IMG/VR virus record: IMGVR_UViG_3300025324_000007
Span: 1-21,759 of that record
Source: a virus
Length of the DNA stretch: 21,759 nt
Reading direction: 5' to 3' (one strand)
Made by a program: the position numbers and the translations under genes
In this document: positions 1 through 21,759 of the stretch, one piece after another
How the letters are laid out: every line of letters starts with the position of its first letter
How positions within the stretch are numbered: position 1 is the stretch's first letter
Notes under the pieces: generated by a model
Database searches by the model: none
Told to the model about the DNA's origin: nothing
Seen by the model: the letters and a program-made list of their open reading frames with translations, nothing else

Positions 1-99
1 GTTCAGAACGATAAGCAGAACGATGCCCGTTCCAGAACGTTCTAGAACCGCCAAGCCCAGTTCTACAAAACCTACCAGAACGGCAGTCAGAACAAAACA
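1..99. repeat. Left copy of 99-bp terminal direct repeat (circular contig overlap)
   Basis: These 99 bases are identical to positions 21661-21759. An exact odd-length overlap of this size is what a k-mer assembler leaves when it closes a circle, so the real unit is most likely 21,660 bp. A genuine short terminal repeat of a linear virion genome is the alternative. The repeat lies inside the AGAAC array, so the junction falls in a naturally repetitive place. Confidence 0.95.
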
Positions 100-250
100 G
101 AACCAAGAGAACCATTTGAGCGTTCTAACCAAAACCAAGCAGAACCGATAAAACGTTTTGTTTCGTTCTACCAAGTTCTGCTCAGTTCTGAAAGTTTTGT
201 ATCGTTCTGTACGTAGAGTAAAACCGACCATTTTTCACTAGAACCCCTCA
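1..250. repeat. Dense AGAAC/GTTCT iteron-like array in the main control region
   Basis: AGAAC starts at 5, 17, 34, 44, 77, 89, 99, 108, 141 and 240. Its complement GTTCT starts at 39, 60, 122, 165, 175, 185 and 204. One more AGAAC lies across the junction at 21648. About 0.5 copies of a given 5-mer pair would be expected by chance in 250 bp. Two abutting 10-bp units, GTTCCAGAAC (29-38) and the perfect palindrome GTTCTAGAAC (39-48), suggest a dimer site. Many neighbours are 9-12 bp apart, so bound proteins would share one face of the helix. Degenerate GTTTT copies at 154 and 194 fill gaps in the right part. No ORF fits. Likely roles, all inferred, are replication origin, partition or packaging site, or a multi-operator. 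Confidence 0.85.
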
Positions 251-253
251 AAA

Positions 254-1039
254 CTACTGCCAACCATGCCCATCGCACACTTCCTTGATGAGAGAACTCA
301 TATAGCCCTTATTCTTGCTATGCTCAAGGCTAAAGCGTTCTGTCAAGTGCTTTGGACTAGGACGAGAACGGTTCTTTGCATAGTGTTCTTCGATGAACAC
401 AATTGCCTTATCTCGATAGTCAGAAGCGTGTTTCTCCCGAACTTCTTTGACCTGTGAAACGACTTGTTGGTTCATCACCATTTCCGGTTTCCCATGCTTA
501 ATAGCATACTTCCTAATTCTATCTTCACGGCTCTCATTACGAAGTTTTTCATCGTGCTTATCGCCTTCACCAGTTACCAAAAGCACAGCGAACATAAAGC
601 CAGCAGGGATGGAGAACAAGGACAGGAGTAGGATAACGTTCTCTGTACTAACTTTGGAACTGTTCACAGCCCACAAATCTGCAACATATCCTACATAGGC
701 AAGGAAGGAAAGCACCGTAGGGATAAGGTATTCATCTTCCTTAGTCTTTACCCACTTGAACAAGTTACGCACAAACGCAATTGTTCCAACCCATCCCAAG
801 AACTCCAACACGATTGCCGTAACCAAAGCCCCAAACGTAGCAACCCAATCAGGAAAACGTCCTGCAATCAACTCCACATACATAGCATGGAGTTTGATCG
901 CCGTGATGAAAGCAGGAATGAGTGGAGCCAGAATAGGAAGCAAACTGGAAGCAAGACGCACAGCAGGTGACTGAGCCGCATCAATTACTTCATCACTCCA
1001 ACGAAACATCTTTGCCAGAAAGTCACTTTGAATTTTCAT
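254..1039 (-). CDS. Four-helix membrane protein with C-terminal winged-helix-like domain
   Basis: This 261-residue protein has four hydrophobic segments at roughly residues 28-54, 63-90, 103-125 and 131-156. A charged soluble tail of about 100 residues follows. The last 50 residues (RDKAIVFIEEHY, then RPSPKHLTERFS) follow the pattern of a small helix-turn-helix or winged helix, with an Arg-Pro-Ser turn before the putative second helix. A membrane-anchored DNA- or protein-binding factor is my inference; no enzyme motif is visible. The start ATG overlaps the stop of the upstream gene (ATGA), which implies translational coupling. It is the last gene of the operon led by the HNH gene, and its stop codon lies a few bases from the AGAAC array. 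Several AGAAC/GTTCT copies continue into its 3' part, including a palindrome at 365-375. Confidence 0.85.
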   Translation of the reverse strand: MKIQSDFLAKMFRWSDEVIDAAQSPAVRLASSLLPILAPLIPAFITAIKLHAMYVELIAGRFPDWVATFGALVTAIVLEFLGWVGTIAFVRNLFKWVKTKEDEYLIPTVLSFLAYVGYVADLWAVNSSKVSTENVILLLSLFSIPAGFMFAVLLVTGEGDKHDEKLRNESREDRIRKYAIKHGKPEMVMNQQVVSQVKEVREKHASDYRDKAIVFIEEHYAKNRSRPSPKHLTERFSLEHSKNKGYMSSLIKEVCDGHGWQ

Positions 1040-2667: not shown

Positions 2668-2771
2668 TTACTCCGTGACACAGTGTTCAGCAAAAGGTTG
2701 AACAGCCACATGCAGAGTAAAACAAGAACGGTCATCAAAATCCAAACTGCAACTTTATATTTGTTGTTTGA
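2664..2771 (-). CDS. Tiny single-pass membrane protein (35 aa)
   Basis: This short frame reads MSNKYK, then a continuous hydrophobic helix (VAVWILMTVLVLLCMWLFN, residues 7-25), then a polar end (TVSRSK). Its TGA stop overlaps the ATG of the next gene in the ATGA arrangement used all over this phage, which argues that it is real. The ribosome site is weak (TTTTTGAGTTTGA). Its upstream edge abuts the T9 run at the end of the candidate RNA. A small toxin-like, holin-like or membrane-sensor role is possible; none can be shown. Confidence 0.55.
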   Translation of the reverse strand, partial: SNNKYKVAVWILMTVLVLLCMWLFNLLLNTVSRSK

Positions 2772-2779
2772 CATTCAAA

Positions 2780-3493
2780 CTCAAAAAAAAATTCGTGCGC
2801 CCCTATATATTAATATTTAATCTTTATATTTCTATATTCTTATTCTCTATATCTTTCTATATATCAATTGGCAAAGCTCTGCCCTACGGTCAGGAAATGA
2901 ACTTCTTGGACAGGGTGGTAATTTATCCTTCATTCATTCACTTTTCGTCAGGGGCAGTGTCTTGCTTTTAGCAGTCTACTGTGTAGCAAAAATCTCGAAC
3001 TAGGTTTTGAAGCTTGTTTTCGGCGTTAGGTTTCATCCATGCCAATATAGTTTCATCAGAAGTTTCGGGAGTGTTTCAACTCTTGCGCCGCGTGTTCCTT
3101 TATCAGCTCACTTCTGCCTGCCAACAGGTTATTTATTCCTGCTGCGGACATCTCTCAACCTAGATTGCCTTTCAATCTGCTCCCTGTGAGTGATGGTGGG
3201 TTTTCGCATTGCCCACAACTGTCAGTGTCATACGTTTCTCGCTACTTCTGTTCCAGCCGTTAGGTTCAGAAGTGTTCGTTGGTCTACTCTCGAATATTTG
3301 CTTAGTGAAACTTCGTCTCTCTAACTGTCACATCCTCTTTCACTAGCATCTCTGCCGCTACTTCAGATTACGTTTTTTGGGTTTACAGTTCCAGCATTTA
3401 TTCGATTGTTAGTGTGCAACGGGATGCCAGTATTCTACCTACATCCTAAGTCTAAGCCCGCGAATTGATGTTATCGCCCATAACTTTTGACTT
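2780..3493 (-). ncRNA. Candidate large structured phage non-coding RNA (~700 nt)
   Basis: About 0.9 kb (2772-3696) holds no convincing ORF on either strand, although coding is dense elsewhere. On the minus strand an extended -10 promoter motif precedes it and a run of nine T's (2788-2780) ends it. It contains many local perfect stems: 3345-3338 with 3310-3303 (8 bp), 3273-3267 with 3250-3244 (7 bp), 3178-3173 with 3167-3162 (6 bp), 3446-3442 with 3426-3422 (5 bp), and 2957-2952 with 2884-2879 (6 bp) enclosing 2934-2929 with 2901-2896 (6 bp). Several loops are A-rich. Large ornate RNAs of this size (GOLLD, ROOL) are known from phages; I cannot show that this is one of them. The 3' boundary is uncertain because no GC-rich hairpin precedes the T-run and the last 80 bases are very AT-rich. 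Confidence 0.5.
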
Positions 3494-3499
3494 ACCACT

Positions 3500-3508
3500 A
3501 TTATATCA
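3500..3508 (-). promoter_or_regulatory. Extended -10 promoter motif ahead of the candidate RNA
   Basis: The minus strand reads TGATATAAT: a perfect TATAAT (3505-3500) with the upstream TG of an extended -10 element. No good -35 box lies 16-18 bases upstream, which extended -10 promoters can tolerate. Transcription would start near 3493, just before the first predicted stems. Confidence 0.6.
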
Positions 3509-3591
3509 CGTTCTCATGAAAAATTCATCTTATTCTCATACTAATATCTATCCCCCGAAGGTACTAAGCGGATAGTCAACATATTAAACGC

Positions 3592-3623
3592 AAAAACCGT
3601 CCACTGCGAATATGAACGGTTTT
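3592..3623 (-). terminator. Hairpin with T-run, probable terminator
   Basis: AAAACCGT (3623-3616) pairs with ACGGTTTT (3600-3593) around a 15-base loop. On the minus strand the right arm continues as TTTTT and then GC. It lies about 70 bases past the stop of the 77-aa gene and about 85 bases before the next promoter motif, where a terminator would be useful. The T's are partly inside the stem, so strength is uncertain. A bidirectional terminator is possible. Confidence 0.5.
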
Positions 3624-3639
3624 GCCTAGGCTAGAAACG

Positions 3640-3662
3640 GAAGATTATGGATGATAATCTTC
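3640..3662. repeat. Perfect 9-bp inverted repeat (stem-loop)
   Basis: GAAGATTAT (3640-3648) and ATAATCTTC (3654-3662) are perfect complements separated by five bases. It lies between the 77-aa gene and the hairpin at 3592-3623. As RNA it would be a stable stem-loop; as DNA it could be an operator. A TGGTATACT extended -10 motif at 3677-3685 sits just upstream on the minus strand. Confidence 0.6.
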
Positions 3663-3696
3663 AAGACACTGGATATAGTATACCATAGATATTCGT

Positions 3697-5040: not shown

Positions 5041-6450
5041 TTATTCTTGGGGAGTTGTGTTATCACTTGACACAGTGTCATTCATGGGCATGAGTGCGAT
5101 TTCTTCAGGAGAGAAACCACAAATCTGCATTTTCATTTGGATTGGCATGTCAATGTTTGCCATAGATGCAAGGTTAGTAATCTTCTCGGTCTGCGTGCTG
5201 ACAGGAATGATTTCTTCAAACTCCATCGCATGTTCAAAATCACCATTGGCATAGTCACCAATCGTGGATGGGAACAATCCATAGAAGATACCCATCGTGA
5301 GTGCCATTTCATTTGCACGTACCTGTCCAGTTACGAAGGCTTCCTCGGCTTCATTAGCTCTGTCCAATGCTCCTGCCAGAAGCGTTCGCATCGCAATCCC
5401 TGAAAGTTCATTCTCTCTCAGGTCATAGTATTTCAACTCAGGCAAGTCCTGTTTGATTTCTTCCCCATCCCCATCCAAAATAGCCTTGAATTCTGTCCAA
5501 GCAAAGTCCAATGCAGAAGTCTTGACCTCATCCCAACCATTTGCTTTGAGAACCTTGAGCCTGCTAAATTTCATCACATCGTCGTCCGTTGGTTTTGTGA
5601 TAGTGCCAGCAGGTTTCTTCATGCCCGTTTCGAGTGTGCTGTTTCTCATAAGCAGGAACATATCGGATTGGAACATCATTTCAGAAAGAACCGTTGCCTT
5701 CCTGTCCCATTCTTCAATCTTCTCGATTGCATGGTCAATACAGGAAACGCCCCACTTATCCCCAACATCCGTGAACTTGCTATGAACGATGGGAATGAAA
5801 TCAATTCCAAAATCGGTCAGGAAGTTGAAGGTCATTGCATCGCCAAGATTTTCCAGTTTGGTTGTTCTATCGCCATGATGTTCCCATGTTGCTACATACC
5901 CATCGAAACCATCGTTCTTTGTCCAATATTCCGTGTAAGTCTTTCTGTCAGAGATGGGAACATCAATACGGATGGAAAGCAGGAAACCACGTTCATCTTC
6001 ATCGAAGTCCGTGACGGTTTTGGTATCTAAAGCAATCTCAACAATTTTCTTCCCATCGAACATGACTTTGGTGAACAGATTGCCGTATAAAGTATTCTTG
6101 CGGAGCATGGGACGTTTGTTGGTTCCAAATCCTGACCACTTCTGAACCTGTTGAATGGCAGATAGCACCGTGTCATTCTTATTGACAACCATAATTTTTG
6201 GCTTGCCCATGCAAAGTTTGGTAGCAAAGAACTCAACACTTCGATGGGTAGGATTTCTCAGTGGTTTGATTGCTTCCAGCCACAAATCGTTGTCTCTCGC
6301 ATAAGAAGCCAAATCGTCGTAAAGAGAATTGTTGGAATAGAAAATGTCCAGCTTATCCATTTTCTCATGGGGAGTAAGTTTGTCCCAATTCTTCTCTAGG
6401 CCAACAAAGCGTCCCTGCAAACTTCGTTCGTTGTCAGTTAGTATTGCCAT
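5041..6450 (-). CDS. Portal protein
   Basis: This 469-residue protein follows directly on the large terminase (TAATG, one shared base). Its size and layout match the SPP1 gp6-type portals that form the dodecameric DNA channel at one capsid vertex. A charged N-terminal region is followed by a central clip and stem region, including IEEWDRKATVLSEMMFQSDM, which resembles the long helix region of portals, and an acidic C-terminus. Positions are approximate because no short signature defines the family. The gene lies at the far end of the virion genes, next to the integrase and about 12 kb in transcription order from the capsid gene, which is unusual. A ribosome site (AGGA) overlaps the terminase stop. 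Confidence 0.85.
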   Translation of the reverse strand: MAILTDNERSLQGRFVGLEKNWDKLTPHEKMDKLDIFYSNNSLYDDLASYARDNDLWLEAIKPLRNPTHRSVEFFATKLCMGKPKIMVVNKNDTVLSAIQQVQKWSGFGTNKRPMLRKNTLYGNLFTKVMFDGKKIVEIALDTKTVTDFDEDERGFLLSIRIDVPISDRKTYTEYWTKNDGFDGYVATWEHHGDRTTKLENLGDAMTFNFLTDFGIDFIPIVHSKFTDVGDKWGVSCIDHAIEKIEEWDRKATVLSEMMFQSDMFLLMRNSTLETGMKKPAGTITKPTDDDVMKFSRLKVLKANGWDEVKTSALDFAWTEFKAILDGDGEEIKQDLPELKYYDLRENELSGIAMRTLLAGALDRANEAEEAFVTGQVRANEMALTMGIFYGLFPSTIGDYANGDFEHAMEFEEIIPVSTQTEKITNLASMANIDMPIQMKMQICGFSPEEIALMPMNDTVSSDNTTPQE

Positions 6451-21271: not shown

Positions 21272-21541
21272 TCAAATATCTGCATAAAAAGTCTTGCCAC
21301 AAGTTTTGCACCGTAGCCTGACCTGAAACTCATCGCATGTCTCATCTCTGTAAAGAAGTTCCAAATCTCCCCCGTCAGGAAGGTGGACAATCTTTCCATA
21401 AATGTTCTGGATATATCTCCATTCCAACTTTGGATGTGTGCCAGTGATAGCCCCAAAGTATTCCACACCACGATCCAAATCCCACCAAACAAATCGCCAA
21501 TCTTCAATGACCTTGATTTCTTCACTGTTTCTGAATGTCAT
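21272..21541 (-). CDS. Small single-CxxC protein, first gene after the control region
   Basis: This 89-residue protein is the first gene of the leftward transcript that leaves the control region. The C-terminus reads TCDEFQVRLRCKTCGKTFYA, with one CxxC and an earlier Cys, as in half of a zinc ribbon. The centre is Asp/Trp-rich (EDWRFVWWDLDRGVEYFG). GGAG lies five bases ahead of ATG 21541. It is probably made early, but its function is unknown. Confidence 0.75.
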   Translation of the reverse strand: MTFRNSEEIKVIEDWRFVWWDLDRGVEYFGAITGTHPKLEWRYIQNIYGKIVHLPDGGDLELLYRDETCDEFQVRLRCKTCGKTFYADI

Positions 21542-21570
21542 TCAATCTCCAAATATTTTATGAATACCGT

Positions 21571-21624
21571 GTCCACATAATAAGGCACTCCACTATTTGA
21601 CACTGTGTCACTGATTATGTGGAC
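21571..21624. promoter_or_regulatory. Nested palindromes upstream of the first gene (operator/promoter region)
   Basis: GTCCACATAAT (21571-21581) and ATTATGTGGAC (21614-21624) are perfect 11-bp inverted repeats. Inside them lies a second palindrome, TGACACTGTGTCA (21598-21610). Together they sit 30-83 bases upstream of ATG 21541 and beside the AGAAC array. On the minus strand a weak promoter could be TGTCAA with TATTAT in this segment, which would place the inner palindrome over the -35 box. Operator sites for a phage regulator are the simplest reading. No other gene lies in 21542-21660 or 1-253. Confidence 0.65.
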
Positions 21625-21660
21625 TTTCCTATACAAAACAGTGGGAGAGAACCATATAGC

Positions 21661-21759
21661 GTTCAGAACGATAAGCAGAACGATGCCCGTTCCAGAACGT
21701 TCTAGAACCGCCAAGCCCAGTTCTACAAAACCTACCAGAACGGCAGTCAGAACAAAACA
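21661..21759. repeat. Right copy of the 99-bp terminal repeat
   Basis: This is identical to 1-99. Joining the ends at 21660/1 makes the circle and places the AGAAC array directly after the nested palindromes. Confidence 0.95.

Follow-up and report, generated by a model that had tools for sequence, protein, structure and literature searches.

Little is known about how phage genomes are held or positioned in the cell; attachment of DNA to the membrane was suggested long ago, and few examples of it have been described at the molecular level. Passages in PMC11500499 describe RocS of Streptococcus pneumoniae and the Par protein of plasmid pSK1, which each combine a winged helix-turn-helix (wHTH) and a membrane anchor in one protein and have been proposed to act in segregation by tethering DNA to the membrane; their wHTH is N-terminal and of the MerR type, and they further have a coiled coil with DUF536 and, at the C-terminus, an amphipathic helix. 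The same source mentions RacA of B. subtilis, which anchors DNA via repeated short centromere-like sites, located on the host chromosome and not, as here, on a phage genome. TubY of type III plasmid partition, as outlined in PMC7762940, is an HTH protein which binds both DNA and the membrane and works with a repeat centromere, but differs from the protein described below in its amphipathic-helix anchor and its partners TubZ and TubR.

The locus presented here, in a viral window of 21,759 nt (the whole stretch of DNA that was analysed), consists of an array of AGAAC/GTTCT words and the adjoining gene of a 261-aa protein. RocS and pSK1 Par appear to be the nearest studied cases, although the architecture differs: as in these proteins, an HTH domain (modelled as three helices, pLDDT 92.8, with weak LexA-like matches) is predicted to be joined to a membrane anchor, but here four TM segments in the N-terminal part come first, the HTH comes last and the array is at the 3' end of the gene. 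DUF536 was not among the Pfam matches of the proteins. The p16.7 protein of phage phi29, which organises replication, likewise is membrane-bound and binds DNA through its C-terminal domain, but has one TM segment, binds DNA non-specifically and is not known to have an array, whereas the 261-aa protein has four predicted TM segments and an array. FtsK is a four-TM membrane protein with its reader last, and LexA consists of a wHTH and an S24 peptidase domain; the FtsK gamma domain (with KOPS) and the LexA N-terminal domain are small winged helices reading a short word, with a likeness that is one of common fold only (Z 4-5), and unlike these proteins the 261-aa protein has neither a motor nor a peptidase domain (no peptidase match). 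CadC/ToxR-type regulators have an N-terminal HTH, a single TM segment and a C-terminal sensor, an order which is reversed in the 261-aa protein with its four TM segments, and RacA is anchored through DivIVA and is not known to have TM segments.

A dense array of short words at the circle junction

The final 99 bases of the window (21661-21759) duplicate its first 99, and the genome is therefore a circle of 21,660 nt. The main genes are all on the minus strand and encode tailed-phage terminase, portal, capsid and tail proteins and a tyrosine recombinase, and the array comes after the stop codon of the 261-aa gene (Table 1). A sequence-only reading of the window had reported 17 AGAAC/GTTCT sites in 250 bp, far above chance, and this was confirmed: the sites are at positions 5, 17, 34, 39, 44, 60, 77, 89, 99, 108, 122, 141, 165, 175, 185, 204 and 240 (the last one ending at 244), compared with 0.64 expected from the genome composition (maximum 3 in 200 resamples) and 1.35 when the base composition is taken from the array (maximum 5 in 500 resamples). 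The array also stands out genome-wide, with 59 sites in the ~21.3 kb outside it (2.76/kb), and AGAAC forms the densest 5-mer cluster on the circle (17 per 250 bp, runner-up 10). The same reading was correct on the orientation of the sites, which left of position 150 are mainly AGAAC (nine, versus three GTTCT) and right of it mainly GTTCT (four, versus one AGAAC), on the presence of abutting 10-bp palindromes, and on a continuation into the neighbouring gene, where the array thins to five sites between 255 and 400 (0.4 expected) with no clear phase. Aligning 44 AGAAC sites extends the word to yAGAACgnT, with a pyrimidine at -1 in 36, G at +5 in 23 and T at +7 in 26 of these sites.

Table 1. Coordinates of the array and of the adjoining gene in the window
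Feature	Position	Strand	Remarks
AGAAC/GTTCT array	1..250	.	17 sites; 25 with AAAAC/GTTTT; on the left it crosses the junction and reaches ~21636
Left end of the array	21648..21759	.	18th site at 21648, 13 bp short of the junction
Abutting inverted sites AGAAC-GTTCT-AGAAC	34..48	.	palindromes 34-43 and 39-48; like pairs in G001 and G006
Ten-site ARAAC/GTTYT run	122..208	.	9-10 bp steps, one 5-bp step at the orientation flip
Five more AGAAC/GTTCT sites	293..389	.	at 293, 337, 365, 371 and 385, within the 3' end of the 261-aa gene
Gene of the 261-aa protein	254..1039	minus	4 predicted TM segments, charged linker, C-terminal HTH domain; homologues adjoin an array in 5/5 records
C-terminal DNA-binding domain as modelled	254..442	minus	residues 200-261, three helices; proposed array reader; pLDDT 92.8

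The members of the ten-site run are at 122, 131, 141, 150, 155, 165, 175, 185, 194 and 204. A hydrophobic ORF of 117 aa on the minus strand runs across the junction (21538-21660 and 1-231) and through the array, with an ATGA overlap with the next gene; as it has no match among phages and no counterpart across the arrays of the two related records G001 and G006 (see below), the array was not treated as coding. The claim that the array occupies the only intergenic control region is wrong, since 2668-3696 is also without a long minus-strand ORF; this stretch of ~1 kb is AT-richer than the remainder and has no Rfam match, and no RNA families were found in the window.

The adjoining predicted membrane protein

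The predicted TM segments of the 261-aa protein span residues ~30-48, 60-78, 105-123 and 135-153. The TM computation was done on four of the five proteins of this family described here, and gave four segments for the window, G001 and G006 and five calls, two of them adjoining, for G008. The loop between TM2 and TM3 is rich in K and R in the window, G001 and G006, which predicts a cytosolic C-terminus. The AlphaFold model of the C-terminal domain was made from three sequences, and the full-length model of the protein is poor (pLDDT 60.8). With Foldseek the best matches of the domain were LexA winged helices, at a weak level (E 0.25, probability 0.92-0.95), and VIA-align gave Z scores of 5.3 for BrxR, 5.3 for SUN1, 4.9 for LexA and 4.3 for the FtsK gamma domain; as these matches are weak and include SUN1, which is not a DNA reader, they indicate a common HTH-like arrangement only and no closer assignment. 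When the domain was compared as a profile with solved structures, the matches were all weak and mostly due to chance. No convincing family for the 261-aa protein was found in Pfam, PHROGs, NCBIfam or PADLOC, and a literature search found nothing on this protein family or the array.

Relatives carrying the gene and an array

Searching viral_contigs for a pattern of four phased GTTYT words gave 96 stretches, for which densities were computed, and 20 of the dense ones were viewed. Nearly all of these were dropped as simple tandem repeats, and only one (L019) looked alike. This record, IMGVR_UViG_3300005577_000039 (G001, 57.6 kb), was thus found by its array, which is dispersed, consists of AGAAC words and contains abutting palindromes; it has a 271-aa gene with 33% identity to the 261-aa protein (E 3e-52), and the order of gene and array at its 3' end is kept.

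We also searched for homologues by protein motif alone, ignoring the array. The motif LPxxAPLxPAF was found in 18 stretches with two homologues (G001 and the new G006), VLExLG[WY]VG in six stretches with three homologues, one of them new (G008), and a third protein motif in seven stretches with four homologues, again with one new (G007). IMGVR_UViG_3300044538_000006 (G006, 47.5 kb), judged circular from its 105-bp terminal repeat, has 11 AGAAC/GTTCT sites at 733-969, at the 3' end of a 268-aa gene. The other two have different words, which were picked after looking, as the densest 5-mer there. In IMGVR_UViG_3300002124_000007 (G007) the last part of the gene contains 13 copies of GAAAG/CTTTC within 250 bp, which has the highest score of any 5-mer cluster in the full 64.7 kb and is not due to the encoded residues (15 in the gene versus 7.5 +/- 2.1 in 300 synonymous shuffles, maximum 13). 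IMGVR_UViG_3300037264_007085 (G008) has no AGAAC array, but GAAAC/GTTTC is present seven times at 1943-2102, which is marginal by density (score 6.2 versus up to 6.1 in 20 shuffles). The sample therefore consists of five homologues, all from uncultivated-virus records, of which three are independent tests: in all three homologues found without the array, an array is present where the gene ends (3'), weakly so in G008, and a repeat array beside the gene, as looked for in a tether of the RocS/pSK1 Par type, is present in all five records. Equal density across the genome or a lack of conservation in relatives had been named beforehand as grounds for abandoning the array, and neither was found.

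The TerL relatives (9 loci, <=41% identity) have no such array, no relative was found in viral_contigs by capsid or by the 261-aa protein alone, there was no match in the phage collection to the window, G001 and G008 proteins, and none in plasmids to the G006 protein. Whole-genome searches with a 4-row alignment gave 0/6, 0/292, 1/398, 0/396 and 0/82, the single match (L211) looking like a sensor histidine kinase, and among 38 stretches of genome_contigs that matched a pattern built on one block of the protein there was no convincing homologue. Another virus record of 19.4 kb (G002) has a long array of 10-bp units NTTCTNNNNN (L061 and L131, ~5100-5430).

Genomic context of the arrays

In the window, G001 and G006 the genes that come next on this strand lie downstream of the array, and the predicted HTH domain would suit a regulator, so that the array could be an operator through which the membrane-anchored HTH protein or another regulator controls its own operon and the genes beyond, as a membrane-bound one-component regulator. 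We consider this unlikely overall, although it may hold for the window, G001 and G006: the G007 array falls within the coding sequence, whose stop codon is overlapped by the following gene, so that no interval is left for a promoter, which argues against an operator; no sigma-70-like promoter was found in 1-400 of the window, and 250 bp with 17-25 sites is large for this purpose.

A replication origin, in which an initiator would bind an iteron-like array and the membrane protein would anchor the replisome, is less probable still. Membrane attachment of origins is an old theme, and a repeat array on a circular phage record would fit it, but the origin hinted at by the sequence-only reading was not borne out, as the GC skew of the window shows no inflection at this position. 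The arrays of G001, G006 and G007 are ~1-7 kb from the detrended skew minimum, which also argues against an origin, though phage skew also follows transcription. Furthermore, no initiator was recognised among the subset of window proteins scanned, and in G006, which encodes DnaB, primase, DNA polymerase and thymidylate synthase, the DnaB, primase and polymerase genes are far from the array.

The word changes with the C-terminal domain

The proteins of the window, G001 and G006 can be aligned over their C-terminal domains (KG.(M/I)S.L), and all three arrays consist of AGAAC. In a tblastn search with the G006 protein (268 residues) the match to G001 reaches residue 265, whereas those to G007 and G008 stop at 224, leaving most of this domain unmatched; for G008 a longer alignment to residue 262 was also obtained, with little conserved within the domain. 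The changed C-terminal domain and the changed word thus come together in G007 (GAAAG) and G008 (GAAAC), and a word that differs where this domain differs is expected if the domain reads the array. Such natural swaps of word and reader (AGAAC, GAAAC, GAAAG) are ready specificity controls.

A different candidate for the binder is a small HTH protein whose gene comes directly after the array in G006 (63 aa) and G001 (86 aa), and which could be an ordinary autorepressor; it is suggested by its position and by an HTH_23-like match below the cut-off (E 0.0012). This is very improbable, as the window (best E 0.065) and G007 or G008 (best E 0.15) have no recognisable homologue of it, their arrays notwithstanding. 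With regard to the earlier proposal of a protein-binding array, the array is real and conserved in position, and among the binders named at the time, which were TerS, the tail of the 261-aa protein and the small zinc proteins, this tail is by far the best supported as a putative reader; as a whole, that interpretation is partly supported.

Orientation and helical phase of the sites

The partly helical phasing reported for the window depends on how the sites are counted. Ignoring orientation there is no period in the window (p=0.2), and a common phase for both orientations is not seen on pooling either (p=0.18), but per orientation the phasing is present (p=0.0145 for AGAAC, 0.001 for ARAAC). 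All five arrays peak at 10.25-10.5 bp when analysed per orientation, with p-values of 0.0065 for G001, 0/2000 for G006, 0.011 for G008 and 0.0585 for G007. Pooling the five arrays (64 sites, ~10.3 bp) gave a score of 34.2 versus a maximum of 23.2 in 2000 random sets, and with the opposite orientations set half a turn apart the pooled score was 30.9 versus 19.2. When the orientation labels were permuted with positions fixed, none of 5000 permutations was as strong (maximum 19.4); per array, this permutation gave p-values of 0.0185 (window), 0.0055 (G001), 0.001 (G006), 0.147 (G008) and 0.0345 (G007). The best offset between opposite orientations is 4-4.5 bp.

The 10.3-bp repeat and the offset of ~4-4.5 bp fit binding on one face of the DNA, and a site centre ~2 bp downstream of the centre of the 5-mer would bring both orientations to that face. 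Binding on one face would also be what a row of readers fixed on a flat membrane needs. Helical phasing, together with the simple tandem repeats of the same word in other phage records, could also point to an intrinsically curved phased sequence or a decayed tandem repeat, to which no dedicated protein would bind. We regard this as the least probable of the explanations considered, since the spacers between 10-bp steps in G001 average only 40% identity, AGAAC is not an A-tract, orientation is coupled to phase and the word changes with the C-terminal domain of the neighbouring protein.

A possible membrane tether

On balance we favour, by a modest degree, the reading that the array would be the binding platform of the adjacent 261-aa protein, and that together they would most likely tether the genome to the membrane. 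This reading builds on the observed array, its conserved position, the change of word with the change of domain, the phasing and the predicted domain fold, whereas the binding itself, membrane insertion, the tethering and its purpose are inferred. The gene and the array, placed at or in its 3' end, would form a single cassette, in which the four-TM protein would be anchored in the inner membrane and its cytosolic C-terminal HTH would recognise AGAAC (extended yAGAACgnT). With sites of the same orientation at each helical turn and opposite ones displaced, all sites would face one side of the DNA, so that some 250 bp of the phage genome could be kept flat on the inner membrane by a series of membrane-anchored domains. 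Such a one-protein tether may serve to organise, position or segregate replicating phage genomes. A ParA-type ATPase (PF13614, AAA_31) was detected in 0/5 records, with the control positive in 14/14. Across the records compared, the constant feature is the cassette of putative reader and array, for which membrane tethering would be the simplest use.

We tentatively suggest that this is an undescribed type of phage tether, in which an integral four-TM protein with an exchangeable C-terminal reader would bind a one-face, helically phased array of a 5-bp word at the 3' end of its own gene, reader and word being swapped together and the flat membrane setting the geometry. A tyrosine recombinase was detected in only one of the five records (the window). 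G006 has its own replisome genes, so the module is not tied to the absence of a replisome. It is conceivable, with similar reserve, that the same proposed tether would serve the integrase-encoding phage of 21.7 kb as well as larger phages in which no tyrosine integrase was detected and of which one encodes a replisome. If true, a single gene and an array of ~250 bp would be a minimal and portable tether, of which the word, the reader and the 10.3-bp geometry are directly testable.

Other observations

In G007 (L206, 7918-9068) and G008 (L191, 648-1773) the membrane gene has two neighbours, one for another membrane protein (207 and 204 aa) and one for a protein of the DUF2227 type (E 1.7e-19 in G007, judged by eye in G008). 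In the window, a 14-bp inverted repeat (93%, 26 bp between the arms) at 21571-21624 flanks the left of the array and encloses a 13-bp palindrome, TGACAC(A/T)GTGTCA, at 21598-21610, upstream of the first gene past the array. A further copy precedes the integrase gene (5068-5080), and 11 bp of the palindrome recur at 2676-2686, upstream of the gene at 2464-2667; these copies look like operators of a phage repressor.
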